Shown: positions 7,995 through 63,965 of the stretch, one piece after another
Layout: every line of letters begins with the position of its first letter
Numbering within the stretch: the stretch's first letter is position 1
NCBI GenBank assembly: GCA_947477885.1
Contig: CANJUD010000002.1
Location: forward strand, 62,001 to 126,000
Reading direction: 5' to 3'
DNA length: 64,000 nt
From: Bacteroidota bacterium
GTDB lineage: Bacteria > Bacteroidota > Bacteroidia > UKL13-3
The notes under the pieces: generated by a model
What the model was told of the DNA's origin: nothing
The model's database searches: none
Seen by the model: only the letters and a program-made list of their open reading frames with translations
Translations under genes and position numbers: made by a program

Positions 7995-8780
7995 ATGAAA
8001 CAAAAAAACCTCAAACAATTTCTCGACGAACAGGTATTGAAAATCAATACACCTGGATTTATAGCAGCCGATCCTATTTCCATCCCCAAACTTTTCACCC
8101 AAAAACAAGATATAGAAATTATGGGTTTTTTTGCAAGTATATTGGCCTGGGGGCAAAGAGTAACCATATTAAACAATTGCAAAAAACTGATAGAACTATT
8201 CGAGAACCAACCCTACGAATTTATAATAAACACTGCACCTAAGGACTGGCAAAGGTTTGATGGATTTGTTCACCGCACATTTAACAGCAGCGACTTATTA
8301 TATTTTATCGATTTTTTTCATCACTATTATAATACCCATGAATCATTAGAACAATTATTTTTGCAGGGATTGAAACATCCCGAATCTTATTCGGGAGATG
8401 AAAATATGGAGCATAGTCTGAATCATTTTAAAATGAAATTTTTCGAACGCAACGTACATTTAAGGCGTACAGAAAAACATATATCTTCGCCGGCACAAAA
8501 CTCGGCATGCAAAAGATTGAACATGTATTTAAGATGGATGGTAAGACAAGACGATGCAGGCGTAGATTTTGGAATATGGAACAATATAAATCCTTCCCAA
8601 CTCCTGTGCCCACTGGACGTGCATGTAGGCCGAACCGCACGCCAGCTGGGCATCCTCACCCGCCCACAAGACGACTGGAAAGCTGTAATTGAATTAACAT
8701 CAAACTTAAAAAAATTAGATAAATTTGACCCTGTGAAATATGACTTCGCTTTATATGGAATGGGGATTAGTAAACAGTAG
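7995..8780 (+). CDS. TIGR02757/DUF2400 family protein
   Basis: 261 residues; the characteristic family sequence is present (GFFASILAWGQRVTILNNCK near 50; ACKRLNMYLRWMVRQDDAGV near 175; PLDVHVGRTARQLG near 205; FDPVKYDFALYGMG at the end). The family is widespread in Bacteroidota and has a helical, HhH-glycosylase-like appearance; its biochemical role is unknown. Two oddities: residues about 128-135 (HPESYSGDE) are encoded by a perfect hairpin at 8376-8400 that looks inserted in frame, and the last codons (ISKQ-stop) are made by the heptamer array that starts at 8769, so the native C-terminus has been replaced. Confidence 0.88.
   Translation: MKQKNLKQFLDEQVLKINTPGFIAADPISIPKLFTQKQDIEIMGFFASILAWGQRVTILNNCKKLIELFENQPYEFIINTAPKDWQRFDGFVHRTFNSSDLLYFIDFFHHYYNTHESLEQLFLQGLKHPESYSGDENMEHSLNHFKMKFFERNVHLRRTEKHISSPAQNSACKRLNMYLRWMVRQDDAGVDFGIWNNINPSQLLCPLDVHVGRTARQLGILTRPQDDWKAVIELTSNLKKLDKFDPVKYDFALYGMGISKQ
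8376..8400. repeat. In-frame palindrome TCCCGAAT-ctt-ATTCGGGA
   Basis: An 8-bp perfect stem with a 3-nt loop (8378-8396), extended by CA/GATG flanks, lies inside the DUF2400 coding sequence and is read as PESYSG. A related hairpin (TCCCGATA-gt-TATCGGGA) sits in the core of the heptamer island 400 bp downstream, and TCCCGA-attag-TCGGGA occurs at 50428-50444. Confidence 0.6.
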
Positions 8781-8930
8781 TCAGTAAACAGTGGTCAGTG
8801 CCTCCCGATAGTTATCGGGACGGCTGATGCTCCGCTGTCTACTGACTACTGTTTACTGACTACTGTTTACTGACTACTGATTACTGATTACTGATTACTG
8901 TTTACTATTTACTGATTACTGTTTACTATT
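8769..8930. repeat. Heptamer-repeat island A (AGTnnnC / ACTnnnT arms)
   Basis: Left arm: AGTAAAC, AGTAGTC, AGTAAAC, AGTGGTC from 8769. Core: GCC, then the hairpin TCCCGATAGTTATCGGGA at 8803-8820, then CGGC. Right arm: twelve units of ACTGACT/ACTGTTT/ACTGATT from 8841 to 8924, then ACTATT running into the start codon of corA. The right arm is the reverse complement of the left-arm words. The stop codon of the upstream gene (8778-8780) is part of the second heptamer, so the island fills the whole spacer. No other promoter or ribosome-binding sequence is visible in front of corA. Confidence 0.85.
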
Positions 8931-17300: not shown

Positions 17301-17335
17301 GGAAGTTGGAAGACCGAAGTTAGAAGTCAGAAGTT
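17301..17335. repeat. Heptamer-repeat array I (GAAGTT words)
   Basis: Five units in a row: GGAAGTT, GGAAGAC, CGAAGTT, AGAAGTC, AGAAGTT. The stop codon of the flippase-like gene (17327-17329, TGA on the minus strand) falls inside the fourth unit. No second arm or GCC-GGC core is visible. Confidence 0.65.
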
Positions 17336-24522: not shown

Positions 24523-24575
24523 AAGAGGGATAAGGACCATGCGGCGTCAGCCTCCTTACTCCTTGCTCCTTACTA
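24523..24575. repeat. Heptamer-repeat island H (AAGGAGT family)
   Basis: AAGAGGG, ATAAGGA, then the core CCATGCGGC-GTCAGC (24537-24550), then CTCCTTA, CTCCTTG, CTCCTTA, CTATTCC. Reverse-complemented, the core GCTGACGCCGCATGG equals that of island G at 13.5 kb. The stop codon of the DUF1028 gene (24573-24575) falls in the last unit. Confidence 0.75.
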
Positions 24576-26990: not shown

Positions 26991-27173
26991 TTATATATAT
27001 TTTTTTTATAGGTATAAACAAACTTTACTATGATATATGATAATACCTCCTATTTTGGCATCCATTCTTTATCAATGTAAAACTTGCTATATACTTTATG
27101 TGTAAATAACAATGCAAAAGTAGCCTAGTACATTACTATGGAATAATGATACACGTCACGTAAAAGAGATAAG

Positions 27174-27291
27174 AGTAATCAGTAATCAGTGGTTAGTAGT
27201 CAGTGGTTAGTGCCATTCGGCAGATAACCGATAACAGGCTACATATAACAAGTGGGTAAGCATGAGCGTTACTGACCACTGATTACTAACG
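27174..27291. repeat. Heptamer-repeat island B
   Basis: Left arm AGTAATC, AGTAATC, AGTGGTT, AGTAGTC, AGTGGTT; core AGTGCCATTCGGC at 27209-27221; a second word type AGATAAC, CGATAAC, AGGCTAC, ATATAAC (27222-27249); a unique segment; right arm ACTGACC, ACTGATT, ACTAACG (27271-27291). Its reverse complement matches island C at 38.8 kb, including CACTTGTTAT and GTTATCTGCCGAATGGCAC. The stop of the YdeI-like pseudogene lies in the right arm. Confidence 0.85.
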
Positions 27292-38790: not shown

Positions 38791-39302
38791 TAGTAAACAG
38801 TAATCAGTGGTCAGTGGTCAGTTTCGCACAGGGCAGACACACTTGTTATTAGTTATCTGTTTCCAGTTATCTGTTATCTGCCGAATGGCACTAATTACTA
38901 ATTACTGTTTACTAAAAAAGCCCATCCCAAAAAAGAGACAGACTTTTATATGTTTTTGAAGATTTGTAGCTGTAATCGGTTATCCGTTATCTGCCGAATG
39001 GCACTATTTATTGATTACTGTTTACTAAAAAAGCCCATCCCAAAAAAGAGACAGACTTTTATATGTTTTTGAAGATTTGTAGCTGTAATCGGTTATCTGT
39101 TATCTGCCGAATGGCACTATTTATTGATTACTGTTTACTAAAAAAGCCCATCCCAAAAAAGAGACAGGCTTTTATATGTTTTTGAAGATTTGTAGTTGTA
39201 ATCTGTTATCAGCCGCATGGCAGTAAATACTGTCTACTGACTACTGACTACTGTCTACTGACTACTGTCTACTGTCTACTGACTACTGTTTACTGACTAC
39301 TA
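38791..39302. repeat. Heptamer-repeat island C with three 113-bp tandem units
   Basis: Starts with AGTAAAC, AGTAATC, AGTGGTC, AGTGGTC, then CACTTGTTAT and GTTATCT-type heptamers, core GCCGAATGGC (38880-38889) and ACTAATT, ACTAATT, ACTGTTT. A 113-bp unit then repeats: CCCATCCC at 38921, 39034 and 39147, cores at 38993-39002 and 39106-39115, each unit carrying an A-rich GCCC...GGC/GAC terminator-like stretch, GTTATCT words, core and ACT words. A last core GCCGCATGGC (39212-39221) leads into ACTGTCT/ACTGACT units that end in the stop codon of the DUF5686 gene. This accounts for the whole 590-bp gene-free space apart from about 80 bp after 38709. Confidence 0.85.
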
Positions 39303-41891
39303 AAAGCTAAACTGATTCCTCCTCCTATCGAAAAACTCGAGTGATATTTTGACTCCTTTGCCAAAAATGGTATTCTGCAAAACCGGGATACTGGGATTCT
39401 GCTTGTGCCAATTGCCGGTCTGCCGGTCTTTGGTATATCCCAGTGCATAATATATACCTAGCCTAAATCGATAACGCTCGATTTTGAATACGCGTTCCAA
39501 TCCAAATATCATTTCGAAATAATATACTTTAGCTTCAGGAGCAAGTAAAAAACCTGTACCTGCAACTTCATTAATATTCAACTTTTTGAAATACGGAATT
39601 TTGTTGCTGAAGAATCCACTGAAACGATGTAGATAATGAAACTCAGTAAACCAATTAAAAGTATATATCGTTGTATCCAACATCTGGAAAGTACTGATGG
39701 GATTGGTAAAAAATAATGGATCGCCACGACGTTGATATTTATAATCAATAGTTTTTACCAGATTTTGATTTAAGAATTGTCCTCCGCGTAATCGGTATTC
39801 ACTGATGCCGAGCACACCCAAATTTATACGCTGCCTCATTGAAAGTTCTATATAATCATAGTTAACAGTGCTGCCAAAAAGATTGGGAATACCTTTACGC
39901 CAAATAGCATAAAATGTGGGCCAACGTGAGCCTAGTATAACTTTTTCATAGGGTTCACGCATGTATTTTTGAAAAGGCACAAATGTAAATTTCACTTGCC
40001 CAGTTAATGCATTATATGAAGGGAATGGAACAGGTGCATTACTGCTATCTCCAAATATTGTACTACTCACTGTTCCATATTTATAATCAGCAACACTTCT
40101 GCGGGTAGAATATTCAACATACATATCTAGATATAAACCATTGGTCAATTCAATTTCATGATCCAAATTTATATAGTTATTTAAATAAAAATTATTTCGT
40201 CTCAATCTGCTCACCCAAGCCGCATTGCCATATATCAAATCAAAACCTCGGCCCATGGACAACCCAAAGGTGCCTCGTTTATAGGGATTATATAAAGTAT
40301 TAAATGTGAAGTCGCCCTGCCAGTCATGGTTTCGAACACCCCAAGTAGCATTGGGGGCAATACCAATTGTTTGCTTTTTCTTGAACTTCTTATAATAACT
40401 AATCCATGCATTTATCCTAGGCCCAGCAATTTGTATCGGAGTATATAATGATACCACAGAAGGGAAATTCCAATATTGTTGTTTTACTCTGTTTATATGG
40501 CCTTGTCCGTACCATAATATATTGAGAAAAGTAACTTTATTATAGGATGAATCCAAGCTATCTAAATATTCTTTTTTACTATGTGCTTCTTTCAAACTAT
40601 CTGAAGTATGCATTAGGCGAATTTCCTTTGCGGTTAAGGGTTCACTGCGGGCAGAATCCCAATAAGCGGTGTCTTTATCATAGGCATCATCTTTGGTATA
40701 ACTTAGTTCATTGCCAAAAAACCTTTTGGGGAATTCTACATTCAATTTATAGTTATTATAATAACAAACGGTACGACCATTTATTGCTCCACGTTTTATT
40801 TTTACTTTATATATAAACTCTTGCCTTTTCATGATATAAAATGTATCCTGCTCTGCACCAAATTCCTGATTAATGGTAAACTCATCATACTCTTTTAATT
40901 TATTTGGCGTAAGTGAAAGACTCAATTTGCGTATGTTCCACAAACTTTCGTTCACATGTATTTCGCCACTCATCAATGCATTTCCTAGCGATCGCGGAGT
41001 AATTTTTATGATATATACTTTTGTATCGCCCACACTATATATACCTTTCATATCAAACTTATAACTTACAAAAGCAAAATCGTTCAAAGGGCTGATAAAT
41101 GTATTATCACTTAAACCTTTTACAAATAATGAACCTTGATAGAAATCGAAATTTCCTTCGGTACTGCTCAAATAAAACAAGCCATCCAAATCGCCAATTT
41201 TATGCTGGGCCTCCTTTACTTCCTTTATATAATTGGGTTGGTGAAAACTGCGATTGATAATAAGCTCCGTAAAATTCATTCCTTCTTTATCCGGCTGCTC
41301 TTTTCCTTTATTATTCTTTTTCTTTTTTGCTGCTGCTGAAGTATCAGCTTTAATAGCATTACTATCTACTAAATATTTTAATAAACTATCAGGTATATCT
41401 TGGGGTTTACTTTTCTTGTTTTTCTTCAACATATTTGTTTCATCGACCGCACGTATATATAATTGGCAAGTACTTGATTTTAATTGGGTTAGCCAACGTT
41501 CCTTACTGTCAATTACATGATGCATTACCTCATTGGCACGGTCGCGTTTACTGCCTCTTATCACAACTCCCTGCATCTGCTCCACCTTAGGAATCAATAC
41601 CATATTGCGAATGATATTTTTGTCTAAAGTTATTTCTGCATATAAACCTTCGTATCCAACTGCTGCAAAATATATCTTATAATAACCTTGCTCCAGTTTT
41701 ATAGTATACTGACCACGTGCATTTGTGAAAGTACTGATATCAGCACCTTGCACCGTAACATTAACACCTTGTATAGGTTTCGATGAGCTATCAAGTATGG
41801 TGCCGCTGACCGCAAACATAGCTTGCGCATTTGCAGCAAACGAACAAATGCATATGATACTAAATAACAATAAATGTTTGTATAATTTCAT
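39300..41891 (-). CDS. DUF5686 family protein with carboxypeptidase-regulatory-like domain
   Basis: 863 residues from ATG 41891 (MKLYKHLLLFSIICICSFAA), which begins a signal peptide; the longer frame crosses the TATTTTTG box at 41914-41921. After an Ig-like CarboxypepD_reg domain (about 24-105; FAVSGTILDSSSKPIQGVNV) comes the DUF5686 region (RGSKRDRANEVMHHVIDSKE, then barrel-like strands to the C-terminal RRRNQFSF). A Lys-rich linker (about 175-205) is low in complexity. It is an outer-membrane barrel-like protein of unknown function, typical of Bacteroidota. Its stop is supplied by heptamer island C. Confidence 0.87.
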   Translation of the reverse strand: MKLYKHLLLFSIICICSFAANAQAMFAVSGTILDSSSKPIQGVNVTVQGADISTFTNARGQYTIKLEQGYYKIYFAAVGYEGLYAEITLDKNIIRNMVLIPKVEQMQGVVIRGSKRDRANEVMHHVIDSKERWLTQLKSSTCQLYIRAVDETNMLKKNKKSKPQDIPDSLLKYLVDSNAIKADTSAAAKKKKNNKGKEQPDKEGMNFTELIINRSFHQPNYIKEVKEAQHKIGDLDGLFYLSSTEGNFDFYQGSLFVKGLSDNTFISPLNDFAFVSYKFDMKGIYSVGDTKVYIIKITPRSLGNALMSGEIHVNESLWNIRKLSLSLTPNKLKEYDEFTINQEFGAEQDTFYIMKRQEFIYKVKIKRGAINGRTVCYYNNYKLNVEFPKRFFGNELSYTKDDAYDKDTAYWDSARSEPLTAKEIRLMHTSDSLKEAHSKKEYLDSLDSSYNKVTFLNILWYGQGHINRVKQQYWNFPSVVSLYTPIQIAGPRINAWISYYKKFKKKQTIGIAPNATWGVRNHDWQGDFTFNTLYNPYKRGTFGLSMGRGFDLIYGNAAWVSRLRRNNFYLNNYINLDHEIELTNGLYLDMYVEYSTRRSVADYKYGTVSSTIFGDSSNAPVPFPSYNALTGQVKFTFVPFQKYMREPYEKVILGSRWPTFYAIWRKGIPNLFGSTVNYDYIELSMRQRINLGVLGISEYRLRGGQFLNQNLVKTIDYKYQRRGDPLFFTNPISTFQMLDTTIYTFNWFTEFHYLHRFSGFFSNKIPYFKKLNINEVAGTGFLLAPEAKVYYFEMIFGLERVFKIERYRFRLGIYYALGYTKDRQTGNWHKQNPSIPVLQNTIFGKGVKISLEFFDRRRNQFSF

Positions 41892-47663: not shown

Positions 47664-47708
47664 GGCGTAAGCCACTAACGACTAATTACTAACGACTAAC
47701 CACTCATA
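47664..47708. repeat. Heptamer-repeat array J (ACTAACG words)
   Basis: ACTAACG, ACTAATT, ACTAACG, ACTAACC, ACTCATA from 47674 to 47708, ending 2 nt before the ribBA start codon. A GC-rich GCAGGCGTAAGCC precedes it and may be a diverged core. The opposite arm is not recognisable. Confidence 0.65.
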
Positions 47709-51557: not shown

Positions 51558-51766
51558 TAATGGTTAATGGTTAATGATAAATGGTTAATTTGTTTTCGCC
51601 TGATTTATGACAAAGATTGATATCGCTTCCCTATCAATGGTTAATAGCCGATGCGGATATTATGTTATTACTCAATTGCATGAACCTTTAACAATCTATC
51701 ACTAACAATTCAAAATAGCTATTGCCGAATGGCATTAACCATTAACCATTTATAATTAACCATTAT
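51558..51766. repeat. Heptamer-repeat island D (TAATGGT / ATTAACC arms)
   Basis: Left arm TAATGGT, TAATGGT, TAATGAT, AAATGGT (51558-51585); a middle stretch containing TGCGGATATTAT; core GCCGAATGGC (51724-51733); right arm ATTAACC, ATTAACC, ATTTATA, ATTAACC, ATTATTT, ending in the stop codon of the DUF5074 gene. The middle stretch, reverse-complemented, resembles that of island E (ATAATATCCGCAT). Confidence 0.8.
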
Positions 51767-56777: not shown

Positions 56778-56998
56778 TTTTACCCGAAAGCTTTGATACT
56801 ATCTAGTTCAGGCAGGTCTTCTGACTTCCCCCTTTTTTGTGGCCTTCCCATTCAGTAAAACTGAGCAGTGGCAATGGTTACAAAAAAATTCCTCCGTAGG
56901 AAGGGGGTTTACAGCATCGGGAAATGTTCATGATTTGCACATGATTCCCTTTTAATCCGCCTGTTTTGTTTAAACATGGAGGAACCCAAACCGATGCA
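56778..56998 (-). ncRNA. Cobalamin (B12) riboswitch
   Basis: On the minus strand the leader contains the conserved AAAAGGGAATCATGTGCAAA with TCATGAAC, then CCCGATGCTGTAA, the GCCACTG segment (complement of 56866-56872) and the B12 box AGTCAGAAGACCTGCCTGA (complement of 56808-56826). These are the hallmark conserved blocks of the adenosylcobalamin riboswitch in the right order. It lies in the 353-bp space between btuB and the divergent FAD oxidoreductase and is expected to reduce expression of the operon when cobalamin is plentiful. A promoter-like CACCTTTG lies just upstream (near 57000). Confidence 0.93.
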
Positions 56999-57046
56999 AA
57001 GGTGCAACTAGTTTTGAATAGTACAATATTTTTTTGTCAACATGCC

Positions 57047-57058: not shown

Positions 57059-58309
57059 GTGATTTTAGAGAATGAATATGAGGTAATAATTGCAGGGGCT
57101 GGTCCGGCTGGAGCTAGTTCTTCCATTTTTTTATCGCAGGCAGGTATCAAACATTTATTAATTGACAAAGCAGAATTTCCGCGTGATAAAGTTTGTGGCG
57201 ATGCTCTCAGCGGGAAAGTTTTGAGTCACCTGAAACATGCTATTCCTGATGTGGCTGCTAAGTTTGCTCAAAATCAAAAAGATTATTTGCCTAGCTACGG
57301 AGTTCGTTTTGTAGCACCCAATGGCAAGCAGGCTGATATTCCTTTTCTGCCCAATATTACCAAAGATTCTCCGCCTCCTGGATTTATTTCTAAACGAATT
57401 GATTTTGATAATTTCTTATATAATAATACTTCTTCCGATTTTGCAATTCGCATATCAAATGCAGAATTGACGGGAATAAAAAAAGAGAATGATATCATAC
57501 AACTCCAGATTAAAAATGGAGAAACTATATATCATACCAAAACAAAAATACTTATAGGTGCTGATGGCGAACGTGGCATCTCGCACAAATACGTGTCAGG
57601 AGGCAGTAAGCGTGACTTGGAGGCATTCTCAGCGGGTATTCGTGCATATTATACTGGCATTGCGGGATATCATGAAATGAACTATATAGAACTTCATTTT
57701 TTACCTGAAATTTTGCCCGGATATTTTTGGATTTTTCCGATGGCCAATGGTGTGTCAAATGTGGGTTTGGGAATATTATCTTCTGAAGTTTCGAAGCACC
57801 ATTTGAATCTTAAAAAAATATTTAATGATATATTAAACCTACCCCAATTTAAAGGACGATTTGCAAATGCAAAACCTGAATCGCAAATACAAGGCTGGGG
57901 TTTGCCGCTTGGCAATAAATATGTAAAACGCTCAACAGATAACGTAATCTTAACAGGTGATGCTGCTAATTTAATCGATCCATTCACAGGCGAAGGAATT
58001 GGGAATGCTATATTATCTGGACGTTATGCTGCTTATGCAGCTATTAAAGCTTTAGAAAATAAGATTTATACTGAAGCATTTTTTAAAGAACACTATGATA
58101 CGCTAATCAAACAAAAAGTGGGGCATGAATTGAAAGTTGGTTCTACACTTTTAAAACTGTGTCGTTATAAATTCCTATTCAATTTTGTAGTAAACAAAGC
58201 CTCCCGTAACAAGGAGTTCAGAGATACCATCTCTTGCATGTTTGCCAATATCGATTTACGTTCCAAGTTTGGCAATCCGATGTTTTATCTGAGGATGCTA
58301 TTTGGGTAG
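57059..58309 (+). CDS. FAD-dependent oxidoreductase, geranylgeranyl reductase-like
   Basis: 416 residues, start GTG 57059. The FAD-binding dinucleotide motif is VIIAGAGPAGASSSIFLSQA (about residues 9-28), followed by FPRDKVCGDALSGKVLSHL (Cys-Gly-Asp typical of the family), IGADGERGISHKYV and the C-terminal GDAANLIDPFTGEGIGNAIL. Members reduce isoprenoid double bonds or act in lipid and quinone modification. The substrate here is unknown; no isoprenoid gene is next to it. The stop codon is followed at once by a MITE-like element. Confidence 0.87.
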   Translation: MILENEYEVIIAGAGPAGASSSIFLSQAGIKHLLIDKAEFPRDKVCGDALSGKVLSHLKHAIPDVAAKFAQNQKDYLPSYGVRFVAPNGKQADIPFLPNITKDSPPPGFISKRIDFDNFLYNNTSSDFAIRISNAELTGIKKENDIIQLQIKNGETIYHTKTKILIGADGERGISHKYVSGGSKRDLEAFSAGIRAYYTGIAGYHEMNYIELHFLPEILPGYFWIFPMANGVSNVGLGILSSEVSKHHLNLKKIFNDILNLPQFKGRFANAKPESQIQGWGLPLGNKYVKRSTDNVILTGDAANLIDPFTGEGIGNAILSGRYAAYAAIKALENKIYTEAFFKEHYDTLIKQKVGHELKVGSTLLKLCRYKFLFNFVVNKASRNKEFRDTISCMFANIDLRSKFGNPMFYLRMLFG

Positions 58310-58416
58310 TTTGTCACCCTGAGTTAATCGAAGGGCGACAAACTAGAATGCACTTTAATTAAGACAATTGAAACGATATACTCCGAAAGTGGTCCTCGAT
58401 AAACTCAGACTGACAA
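58309..58416. repeat. MITE-like element, TTTGTCA...TGACAA type, copy 2
   Basis: GTTTGTCACCCTGAGTTAAT with CGAAGG at the left end and CCTCGATAAACTCAGACTGA with CAA at the right end are inverted relative to each other. The left end also folds on itself (GTTTGTC ... GACAAAC). It begins in the stop codon of the FAD gene. Related to 50415-50530. Confidence 0.75.
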
Positions 58417-61004: not shown

Positions 61005-61904
61005 ATGCAATTACTCGACGGCAAATTGGTATCGGAAACCATCAAAGAAAAACTGAAAACCGAAATTGAAAGTTATATATCGCAAGGAAAACGCAAACCC
61101 AAATTAGTTGCTATTATAGTTGGCGACAATGGTGCAAGTCAAACCTACGTGGCCAGCAAAGAACGCAATAGCAAAGCAGTAGGCATGGAATCAGAAGCGA
61201 TACGGTTGGATGTTGCTACCACAGAAAATGAACTTTTGGATTTGATTGCCAAACTAAATAATGACGATACAGTTGATGGTATGTTGGTGCAATTACCACT
61301 ACCAAAACATATAGATGCAAACAAAGTAACCGATGCTATTTTGCCTCACAAAGATGTGGATGGTTTCCATCCCTATAATACCGGACAAATGGTGAAAGGG
61401 GTTGACACTTTGCTGCCCGCAACTCCCTTTGGAATTTTATTAATGCTAGAACATTATAATATACCAACAGTTGGCAAACATTGCGTAGTAATTGGCCGCA
61501 GTGACATTGTGGGCAAACCGATGTCGATATTGATGAGCCGCAATGCATACCCTGGCAATTGTACAGTAACTATGTGTCATAGCAAAACCCAAGATTTGAA
61601 TTCATATACTTTGCGTGCTGATATATTAATTGTAGCATCTGGAATACCCGAAATGGTAACAGGCGATATGGTAAAACCCGGAGCAGTTGTTATAGATGTA
61701 GGCATTACCCGCATGGATGCAGACAATGAAAAAGGATACGTAATAAAAGGCGATGTCCATTTTGAAAGTGCAAAAGAAGTTGCTTCGTATATCACTCCCG
61801 TTCCCGGCGGCGTAGGATTAATGACTATTGCAGGGTTGTTGATGAATACTTTGAATGCGTATAAGAAACATATGGGAATAGAAGAAGTAATTGTTAATGG
61901 TTAA
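61005..61904 (+). CDS. folD: Methylenetetrahydrofolate dehydrogenase/cyclohydrolase
   Basis: 299 residues. All signature segments are present: ASQTYVASKERNSKAVGMES (catalytic region with the Tyr/Lys pair), QLPLPKHIDANKVTDAILPH (substrate loop), VVIGRSDIVGKPMSILM (NADP site) and TPVPGGVGLMTIAGLLMNT. It interconverts 5,10-methylene-, methenyl- and 10-formyl-tetrahydrofolate. The last two codons (NG) and the TAA come from the heptamer array at 61893, so the native C-terminus ended near IEEVIV. Confidence 0.95.
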   Translation: MQLLDGKLVSETIKEKLKTEIESYISQGKRKPKLVAIIVGDNGASQTYVASKERNSKAVGMESEAIRLDVATTENELLDLIAKLNNDDTVDGMLVQLPLPKHIDANKVTDAILPHKDVDGFHPYNTGQMVKGVDTLLPATPFGILLMLEHYNIPTVGKHCVVIGRSDIVGKPMSILMSRNAYPGNCTVTMCHSKTQDLNSYTLRADILIVASGIPEMVTGDMVKPGAVVIDVGITRMDADNEKGYVIKGDVHFESAKEVASYITPVPGGVGLMTIAGLLMNTLNAYKKHMGIEEVIVNG

Positions 61905-62046
61905 TGGTTAATGGTTAATGGTTAATACCATTCGGCAAAAACTCATTATATAATATCCGCATTGCGACATTAACAATTAACAATTTACAATTAACCATTA
62001 ATAAAGGTTCGCATCGCGACATCAACCATTAACCATTAACCATTAA
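61893..62046. repeat. Heptamer-repeat island E (GTTAATG / ATTAACC arms)
   Basis: Four copies of GTTAATG (61893-61920), then GTTAATACC, core ACCATTCGGC (61927-61936), a middle stretch with ATAATATCCGCAT and a second CGCATCGCGAC, then ATTAACA/ATTTACA/ATTAACC units and finally AACCATT repeats ending 3 nt before the start codon of the ABC-F gene. The folD stop (61902-61904) is inside the second unit. Confidence 0.85.
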
Positions 62047-62049
62047 AGA

Positions 62050-63921
62050 ATGCCAAATATAGTTTCAGTAGAGAAAATGAGCAAAAGATACGGTGATCGT
62101 ATCCTGTTCGAAGATATAGTTTTTGGGATTGAGAAAGGTGAAAAAGTTGCTTTGATTGCTCAGAATGGCACAGGAAAAACTTCGTTGCTTAACATATTGG
62201 CAGGTATTGAAAGTCCTGATACAGGTGGGGTTGCGTTCAATAAAGATTATAGAACGGGCTACCTTCCCCAAGACCCAGATGTAGCTAAATTTCATTTGGT
62301 AAGTGATTATATATTCAATGATCAAAATCCCCAGCAACATGTGATAAAAGAATATGAACTTGCGATAGAACATGGTGATATAAATGCAATAGAGAAAGCA
62401 ACCAATGCAGTGGATGCTTTAAATGCTTGGGACTATGAAGTTCGTATCAAACAAATTATTACAAGTTTTCAAGTTCCGGGTTTTGAAACAGAAATTAAAA
62501 CACTGAGTGGTGGTCAGAAGAAACGCTTGGCTCTAGCAGCTCTGCTCATCGACCAACCTGACTTTATTATATTAGATGAGCCTACCAACCATCTGGATTT
62601 GGAGATGATAGAATGGTTGGAAAATTATTTAACGCAGCAAAATATAACTGTATTATTAGTAACACACGATAGATATTTTTTGGACCGTGTATGCAATCGC
62701 ATATTGGAAATGGACCAAACAAAACTATATCAATATGACGGTGATTATGAGTATTTTTTGGAGAAGAAAAATGAGCGGATGTTTAATGAATCTCGTGAAA
62801 CTGATAAAGCCAAAAACTCCTATAGAACTGAACTGGAATGGATACGCAAGATGCCCAAGGCACGAGGGACTAAGTCGAAAAGCAGGATACAAGCATTTGA
62901 TGCAATAAAAGAAAAAGCATTACGCAAAACAGGTTATCAGGAACTAAAATTTGATGTGAAGATGAACCGCATCGGTGGCAAAATTTTAGAACTGAAAAAT
63001 ATACAAAAAAAATACGGAGATAAGAATATTATAAAAGGCTTTGATTATACATTTAAACGTGGAGATAAGATAGGAATTGTAGGAAAAAATGGCGTTGGAA
63101 AATCTACTTTTTTAAATATAATAACCGGCGATGAGCCTATTGATTCTGGGAAGCTGAACAAGGGCGAAACTATTATCATGGGTTACTTCAAACAGGATAA
63201 TATTAAACTTCCAAATGATACAAGAGTAATTGACGCGATTAAGAATATTGCTGATATCATACCCACAGCCAATGGTGGACATATCACCGCATCGCAAATG
63301 CTTACTGCTTTCCATTTTCCGCCCGACAGGCAGTATACATTTGTAAGCAAGCTAAGTGGTGGTGAAAAACGCAGATTATATTTATTAACTTTATTGATGC
63401 ACAATCCAAATTTTTTAATTCTGGATGAGCCCACCAACGACCTCGATTTACTTACCCTAAATGCACTGGAAGAATTTCTCCAGTACTTTGCCGGATGCCT
63501 AATAATCGTAAGCCACGACAGATATTTCCTCGACAAGCTAGTTGACCAATTATTTGTATTTGAAGGCGATGGTTTAATATCAATATATAATGGCACTTAC
63601 TCAGAATATAGAGAATATACTAAACTAAAAGAGAAGGAAGCTTTAGCTGCGAAAAAAAACAATAACAATACTATAAATGTTGAAACTAAAGCACCAGAAA
63701 AATCAAACAAGAATAAATTAACTTATAAAGAAAAATTCGAATTTGAAACGCTCGAAAAAGAATTACCCCAGTTTGAAAAAGAAAAACAAGAACTCGAAGA
63801 AAAACTAAACCTAGGCAGCGCAAATCACGAAGAACTATTACAATGGGGACAAAGACTCGAATTCCTTATCGGAGATATAGACAATAAATCTTTGAGGTGG
63901 TTGGAACTTTCGGAGAAATAG
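62050..63921 (+). CDS. ABC-F family ATPase (Uup-like)
   Basis: 623 residues. Two ABC modules: Walker A AQNGTGKTS (about 36-44) and GKNGVGKST; signatures LSGGQKKRLALAALL and LSGGEKRRLYLLTLLM; Walker B ILDEPTNHLD and ILDEPTNDLD. The linker between modules carries the P-site-tRNA interaction motif region (YRTELEWIRKMPKARGTKSK), and the C-terminus is a coiled coil (KLTYKEKFEFETLEKELPQF), as in Uup. Such proteins bind ribosomes or branched DNA and are not transporters. The start codon abuts heptamer island E and the stop codon lies in island F. Confidence 0.94.
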   Translation: MPNIVSVEKMSKRYGDRILFEDIVFGIEKGEKVALIAQNGTGKTSLLNILAGIESPDTGGVAFNKDYRTGYLPQDPDVAKFHLVSDYIFNDQNPQQHVIKEYELAIEHGDINAIEKATNAVDALNAWDYEVRIKQIITSFQVPGFETEIKTLSGGQKKRLALAALLIDQPDFIILDEPTNHLDLEMIEWLENYLTQQNITVLLVTHDRYFLDRVCNRILEMDQTKLYQYDGDYEYFLEKKNERMFNESRETDKAKNSYRTELEWIRKMPKARGTKSKSRIQAFDAIKEKALRKTGYQELKFDVKMNRIGGKILELKNIQKKYGDKNIIKGFDYTFKRGDKIGIVGKNGVGKSTFLNIITGDEPIDSGKLNKGETIIMGYFKQDNIKLPNDTRVIDAIKNIADIIPTANGGHITASQMLTAFHFPPDRQYTFVSKLSGGEKRRLYLLTLLMHNPNFLILDEPTNDLDLLTLNALEEFLQYFAGCLIIVSHDRYFLDKLVDQLFVFEGDGLISIYNGTYSEYREYTKLKEKEALAAKKNNNNTINVETKAPEKSNKNKLTYKEKFEFETLEKELPQFEKEKQELEEKLNLGSANHEELLQWGQRLEFLIGDIDNKSLRWLELSEK

Positions 63922-63965
63922 TGGTCAGTAAACAGTAGTCAGTGGTCAGTGCCATTCGGCTGCTA
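63920..63965. repeat. Heptamer-repeat island F (AGTGGTC words)
   Basis: AGTGGTC, AGTAAAC, AGTAGTC, AGTGGTC from 63920, then AGTGCCATTCGGC. The stop of the ABC-F gene (63919-63921) overlaps the first unit. The opposite arm is probably beyond the window end. Confidence 0.75.

Follow-up and report, generated by a model that had tools for sequence, protein, structure and literature searches.

Why should arrays of heptamers open inside the stop codon of one gene and close at the start codon of the next, as they do downstream of the DUF2400 gene? An earlier note on this DNA proposed either insertion limited only by coding selection or a 3'-end function such as termination or mRNA stability. Here, we evaluated both readings in the window, the 64,000-nt stretch presented above, and in six contigs that make up 1.85 of the 3.12 Mb of the genome. 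A hexamer model was used to call genes, and gene starts were taken from a home-made caller. The gene names (DUF2400, DUF5074 and the like) are those of the earlier note, and the DUF2400 gene was traced through homologues.

We found that stop codons lie within an array or at its edge at seven loci (DUF2400, flippase-like, DUF1028, DUF5686, DUF5074, folD, and ABC-F), exactly where the earlier note had placed them (Table 1). At its YdeI site (27286), a right arm is present, and an intact gene was not called there. The note had also described arrays that run to within 0 to 3 nt of the next start codon. This is the case before 8931 and 62050, while the array before 47711 halts 6 nt away.

Table 1. 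Heptamer arms, cores, and associated stop codons in the window
Feature	Position	Strand
DUF2400 left arm of AGTRRWC heptamers (AGTAAACAGTAGTCAGTAAACAGTGGTCAGT), encoding the terminal S-K-Q-stop (homologues without array end GLGVEKF-stop or similar)	8769-8799	+
DUF2400 stop TAG, inside arm AGTAAACAGTAG, 12 nt in from array edge	8778-8780	+
GC-rich core hairpin, beginning GCCTCCCGATAGTTATCGGGACGGC	8800-8834	+
Right arm, inverted heptamers (GWYYACT), 0 nt from next start codon (8931)	8835-8930	-
ACTTCNN array over stop of flippase-like gene (17327-17329, 8 nt inside)	17302-17335	-
DUF1028 stop TAG (24573-24575) opening AAGGAGT-family arm, then GCTGACGCC; core GCTGACGCCGCA at 24540-24551	24540-24575	-
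AGTRRWC arm, then GCCATTCGGC core; right arm near 27271-27289	27164-27212	+
Arm of long composite element; outer end (first units) overlaps DUF5686 stop TAG (39300-39302)	39228-39311	-
ACTAACG-family right arm behind GCGTAAGC core; ends 6 nt before ATG 47711	47672-47704	-
TTAATGG-family arm; first triplet is DUF5074 stop TAA (51763-51765); GCCATTCGG core inward	51733-51765	-
TTAATGG-family left arm; supplies last residues of folD and TAA stop (61902-61904), 17 nt inside	61888-61926	+
Right arms (ATTAACC/ATTAACA); gap of 3 nt to ATG 62050	61969-62046	-
AGTRRWC left arm; first triplet is ABC-F stop TAG (63919-63921), then TGGTCAGT; core GCCATTCGGC after arm	63919-63945	+

Abundance and anatomy of the elements

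The heptamer arrays were confirmed as a genome-wide phenomenon. In the 1.85 Mb, self-similarity at lag 7 yielded 129 segments, as compared to 3 to 8 at lags 4 to 6, 8, and 9 (3 at lag 5, 8 at lag 6, 4 at lag 8, and 5 at lag 9), 0 to 2 at lags 10 and 11 (2 at lag 10), and none at lag 7 in Markov-simulated sequence. Almost all lag-7 segments (122/129) are intergenic. The commonest family is AGTRRWC, a unit devoid of G-tracts, and the length of the arrays is highly variable, with a maximum of 559 nt. Arrays in which ACT heads six successive heptamer positions (ACTNNNN) were found in 128 of the 295 sampled Bacteroidia genomes, with variable letters that are specific to the lineage; thus, the phenomenon is broad. 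The heptamer element had no matches in viral contigs, and an Rfam search assigned no family to the arrays. The sole Rfam match lay elsewhere, a cobalamin riboswitch at 56793-57004 on the minus strand.

When the spacers were read as a whole, the arrays proved to be mirrored arms flanking a GC-rich core (GCCATNCGGCGTCAGC). This had escaped the earlier note: rather than standing free, the arrays pair up as the ~31-nt arms of a single inverted-repeat element, the core of which is conserved. Because of this arrangement, the same motif appears, mirrored, at both the stop and the start. The core motif GGCGTCAGC occurs in 84 copies in the 1.85 Mb, while similar 9-mers occur 0 to 5 times, and 53 of the 84 copies lie no more than 60 nt from a detected array. 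It is followed by arms of the AGTRRWC, TTAATGG, ACGATTT, or AAGGAGT family. Among 48 paired arms, the commonest gap is exactly 14 nt (17 pairs), and arm lengths peak at 31 to 33 nt; reversed sequence is a poor control for this arm profile, as period-7 arrays partly match it. Read inward from the gene edge, the outermost arm starts with AGT at 135 of 176 edges. Matches to the core with at most one mismatch numbered 29 in G000, 35 in G001, and 9 in G002, and outside the genus, the core was nearly absent from the other relatives searched.

Folding of the arm pair at locus C3_211 predicts a hairpin of -37 to -44 kcal/mol. However, when the two arms are compared in register, their variable positions match slightly less often than in shuffled pairs (0.793 versus 0.822), and selection for pairing or template switching between the arms was therefore rejected. 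In the window, two heptamer arms enclose 3.1 tandem copies (96% matches) of a 113-bp unit at 38866-39210; the unit itself holds pieces of heptamers. Tandem copies of the element at G000:C6:67654-67873 and G000:C4:224825-227638 carry duplicated bits of the start or stop region of the neighbouring gene, which suggests duplication via the arms or the core.

Overlap with stop and start codons

Across all array families, the stop is overlapped by 61 of the 170 arrays that face one, and the start by only 9 of the 180 that face one (Fisher p=1e-13). The AGTRRWC arms showed the same asymmetry (49/92 versus 5/84, p=2e-12), as did two congeners with other dominant heptamers, in which the ratio of stop to start overlaps is 12:0 (G001) and 18:1 (G002). 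The earlier note held the pattern to be stronger than expected of neutral spacer repeats. Under a null in which elements fall uniformly on the free spacer and on 25 nt of the gene at each side, stop overlap of AGTRRWC arms exceeds expectation only modestly (49 observed, 36.8 expected, p=0.0016), and the main departure is the depletion at starts (5 observed, 29.5 expected). Thus, the asymmetry mainly reflects exclusion from starts, although the mild excess leaves room for some attraction to the ends of genes. Joining might be favoured where a stop codon offers TA to the TAG terminus of the element. Between arms and starts, we found short, A-rich linkers (such as ACT-AAAA-ATG). A-rich leaders are favoured in Bacteroidota translation, and the linkers are consistent with this preference.

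Palindromes free of heptamers are also present. One of them (TTTGTCACCCTGAGTTAATCGAAGGGCGACAAA, 58307-58340) starts directly at the stop codon of the ORF at 57059-58309, and a stretch of about 107 bp from the same start has many copies in the sister genome G001. In a heptamer-free family of the CTGAGTTTATCGAAG type (n=27), 9 members lie within 10 nt of a stop and none overlaps it.

The arms themselves are rich in stop triplets. As 7 cannot be divided by 3, successive units fall in different reading frames, and a small number of units carrying a stop triplet is enough to close most or all of them. Read inward, an AGTRRWC arm closes 2.31 of the three frames within 31 nt, as compared to 1.29 for other spacer DNA, and all three frames are closed in 50% of these arms but in 6% of other spacers. 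The stop codon inside an arm is TAG in 30 of 49 cases, versus 314 of 1503 (21%) genome-wide, and the depths to which arms overlap gene ends fall in several reading frames. Among arrays near a stop, those whose heptamer contains a stop triplet extend across the stop codon more often than those of stop-free families (53/69 versus 11/28, p=0.0008, with the family grouping picked after the counts were seen), while a narrower contrast, restricted to arrays at least 4 nt into the gene, was not significant (p=0.17). Of the two readings offered by the earlier note, limitation by coding selection is thus the better supported: the arms hold stops in multiple frames and enter genes in different frames, overlap is tolerated at stops but not at starts, and stop-free families overlap less. 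The combination of a period of 7 with a stop triplet offers a simple explanation, open to testing, for the closeness of heptameric repeats to stop codons.

C-termini and arms at orthologous sites

The earlier note had suggested that arrays replace the last residues of some genes. This is the case for DUF2400 and folD, as well as for C3_76, C5_45, and C3_74, while DUF5074 and others keep their native stop, which abuts the array. The DUF2400 product ends in GMGISKQ here and in GMGISKQSLVD in the sister genome L117, where another heptamer family follows; homologues lacking the array end in KYDFALFGLGVEKF or similar. At this locus, L117 carries a long array (1820-2450) that mixes ACTAACG (7 nt) and ACTAACAG (8 nt) units. 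FolD ends in GIEEVIVNG here, and in GIEEAYTV or GIEETIMNYK in relatives. In contrast, DUF5074 ends in GFLFK here and in the nearly identical GFLFR in G002, in which the array is absent. Orthologous gene ends thus follow two routes: the native stop is kept with an abutting array, or the last residues are replaced by array-encoded ones. In the latter case, heptameric repeats rewrite the C terminus of the protein. Identity over the last four residues averaged 1.88 of 4 for genes entered by an array and 2.80 otherwise (p=0.06, n=17), which is only suggestive of C-terminal divergence.

Arrays are shared at orthologous 3' ends above chance, both with G001 (6 versus 1.3 expected) and with G002 (8 versus 3.1), reflecting either inheritance or hot spots. 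We also found sites at which the core is kept but the arms belong to another heptamer family, an observation that is new. At C3_211, arms and core read AGTAGTCAGTAAAC, GGCTGACGCCGTATGGC, and GTTTACT here, as compared to AGGGATAAGGAATAAGG, GGCTGACGCCGAATGG, and CCTTATTCC in G001, and the arms also differ at C5_45, 47, 48, 69, 70, and 80. The change could represent replacement in place or re-insertion at hot spots. Sister species might keep core and position while both arms are replaced together (AGTRRWC by AAGGAGT or CATTAGT), as if new arms were copied onto the elements in place, from a template or a pool of donors that serves the whole genome; we regard this idea of a fixed core with exchangeable arms as rather unlikely. 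With their exchangeable heptamer arms, the palindromes at these sites point to a class that has been little described.

Origin of the elements and relation to known repeats

The arrays belong to a dispersed, non-coding inverted-repeat element whose insertion and expansion are probably tolerated up to coding limits. A complete element consists of an arm of ~31 nt (TAG with about 4.5 heptamers), a GC-rich core of ~14 to 17 nt or longer, and a reverse-complement arm that ends in CTA. We infer that such elements arise in spacers by dispersal and heptamer slippage, essentially blind to the reading frame. Most arm units, read from either gene inward, carry TAG or TAA, and because the arms close several frames, insertion or growth over the last codons should be nearly harmless: an arm over a gene end would provide the gene with a few residues and a fresh stop codon. 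Where an arm instead grows towards a start, into the A-rich leader or the first codons, purifying selection would act against it, so that arms mostly halt several nucleotides short. In this way, spacers would come to be occupied over their whole length, from stop codon to start codon. The simplest reading is a passive element that is limited by coding needs.

The second reading of the earlier note, in which the elements are transcribed hairpins that end transcription or protect mRNA and are held at stops by selection, appears improbable. The median distance to the upstream stop (-1 nt), the fact that the stop is the nearer of the two codons for 48 of 64 codirectional elements, and the strength of the C3_211 hairpin all agree with it, as does the finding in Xanthomonas that starts or ends of transcripts are more frequent at heptamer repeats able to form quadruplexes (PMC4692102). 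However, terminators and mRNA 3'-end elements are expected between convergent genes, and the elements occupy 26 of 222 convergent and 31 of 222 divergent spacers (p=0.57); this lack of enrichment does not support a 3'-end function. In addition, the element at 8769-8930 shows no terminator-like site or U-tract, the two arms are not matched above shuffled pairs, arms are lost or swapped at orthologous sites, and they occur where no gene ends. The elements thus do not resemble intrinsic terminators, which combine a GC hairpin with a T run and are enriched between convergent genes. Growth in place by replication slippage from heptamer-like native sequence, including the native stop region and involving no mobile element, is equally doubtful. 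The widely varying array lengths and two gene ends that already read AGTAGTTAG or CAGTAA in a relative (C5_80 and C4_185) argue for it, but slippage alone cannot produce a shared core with mirrored arms at scattered loci.

A transposable MITE with a preference for TA targets, in which TAA or TAG serves as the target and a TAG-ended insertion regenerates the stop, is somewhat more plausible, yet still tentative. It is compatible with the passive, dispersed element that we favour, and, if correct, would mean that stop codons also attract the element actively. A T precedes the outermost AGT in 36 of 59 stop-side and 45 of 67 start-side arms (61 to 67%, versus 33% T in spacers), the stop codons borne by arms are mostly TAG, and 5'-TA-3' termini are known from Correia, ERIC, and RUP elements (PMC2229807). 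On the other hand, none of the relatives compared offered a clean empty site with duplication of a TA target; their sites are mostly occupied by another repeat rather than empty. A RAYT/Y1 transposase was rejected as the mobiliser, as none of the four Y1_Tnp (IS200-like) genes (G000:C8, C6, C10, and C5) is flanked by arms or core. A search for a reverse transcriptase that might template the heptamers found none.

A pattern of heptamers hugging stop codons has already been described for Xanthomonas and Nostoc, in which GGGAATC or GGGGAYT repeats of about four units form inverted pairs and overlap stop codons (Rehm et al. 2015, PMC4692102), with 70 to 75 convergent (inverted) array pairs per Xanthomonas genome (PMC4692102). 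The arrays studied here are similar in that the 7-nt unit is over-represented as compared to other lengths and intergenic, about four units (the 31- to 33-nt peak) are typical, inverted pairs are frequent (48 here), and the arrays lie near or over the upstream stop and farther from the next start. However, the Xanthomonas and Nostoc repeats are G-rich and quadruplex-forming, while those described here are AT-rich and rich in stop codons, with AGTRRWC lacking a G-tract. The present elements also have a conserved core and arms from several heptamer families that can replace one another, and the phyla differ.

TAACTGA direct repeats, described from Beggiatoaceae, Cyanobacteria, and five Bacteroidetes (MacGregor 2015, PMC4679880), are likewise intergenic heptamers whose unit contains stop triplets. 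Some Bacteroidetes have long arrays while close relatives may have none, and in the genome described, the repeats lie mostly just upstream of starts and were read as translational signals. The arrays reported here instead overlap stops and use other units, and their inverted arms around a core have no counterpart in the portions of that account considered here.

REP sequences and CGTC- and GTAG-tagged palindromes are dispersed and lie mostly downstream of genes (Di Nocera et al. 2013, PMC3733652). The core of our element contains CGTC and its arms contain GTAG; however, tagged REPs are units of 20 to 40 bp with a short stem beside the tag (PMC3733652), while heptamer arms form the stem of the present element, which has no link to a transposase. 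An assignment to CGTC-tagged REPs (8- to 9-bp stem, 4- to 5-nt loop, CCA tail) was rejected by inspection, as the CGTC of the core is directly followed by a heptamer arm. Last, like the MITEs with TA termini (Correia/NEMIS, ERIC, and RUP), the elements are short, non-autonomous, intergenic inverted repeats (PMC2229807), and RUP even carries stops in all six frames (PMC2229807). The terminal repeats of Correia/NEMIS, ERIC, and RUP, however, are unique sequences, while those of the present element are heptamer arrays.
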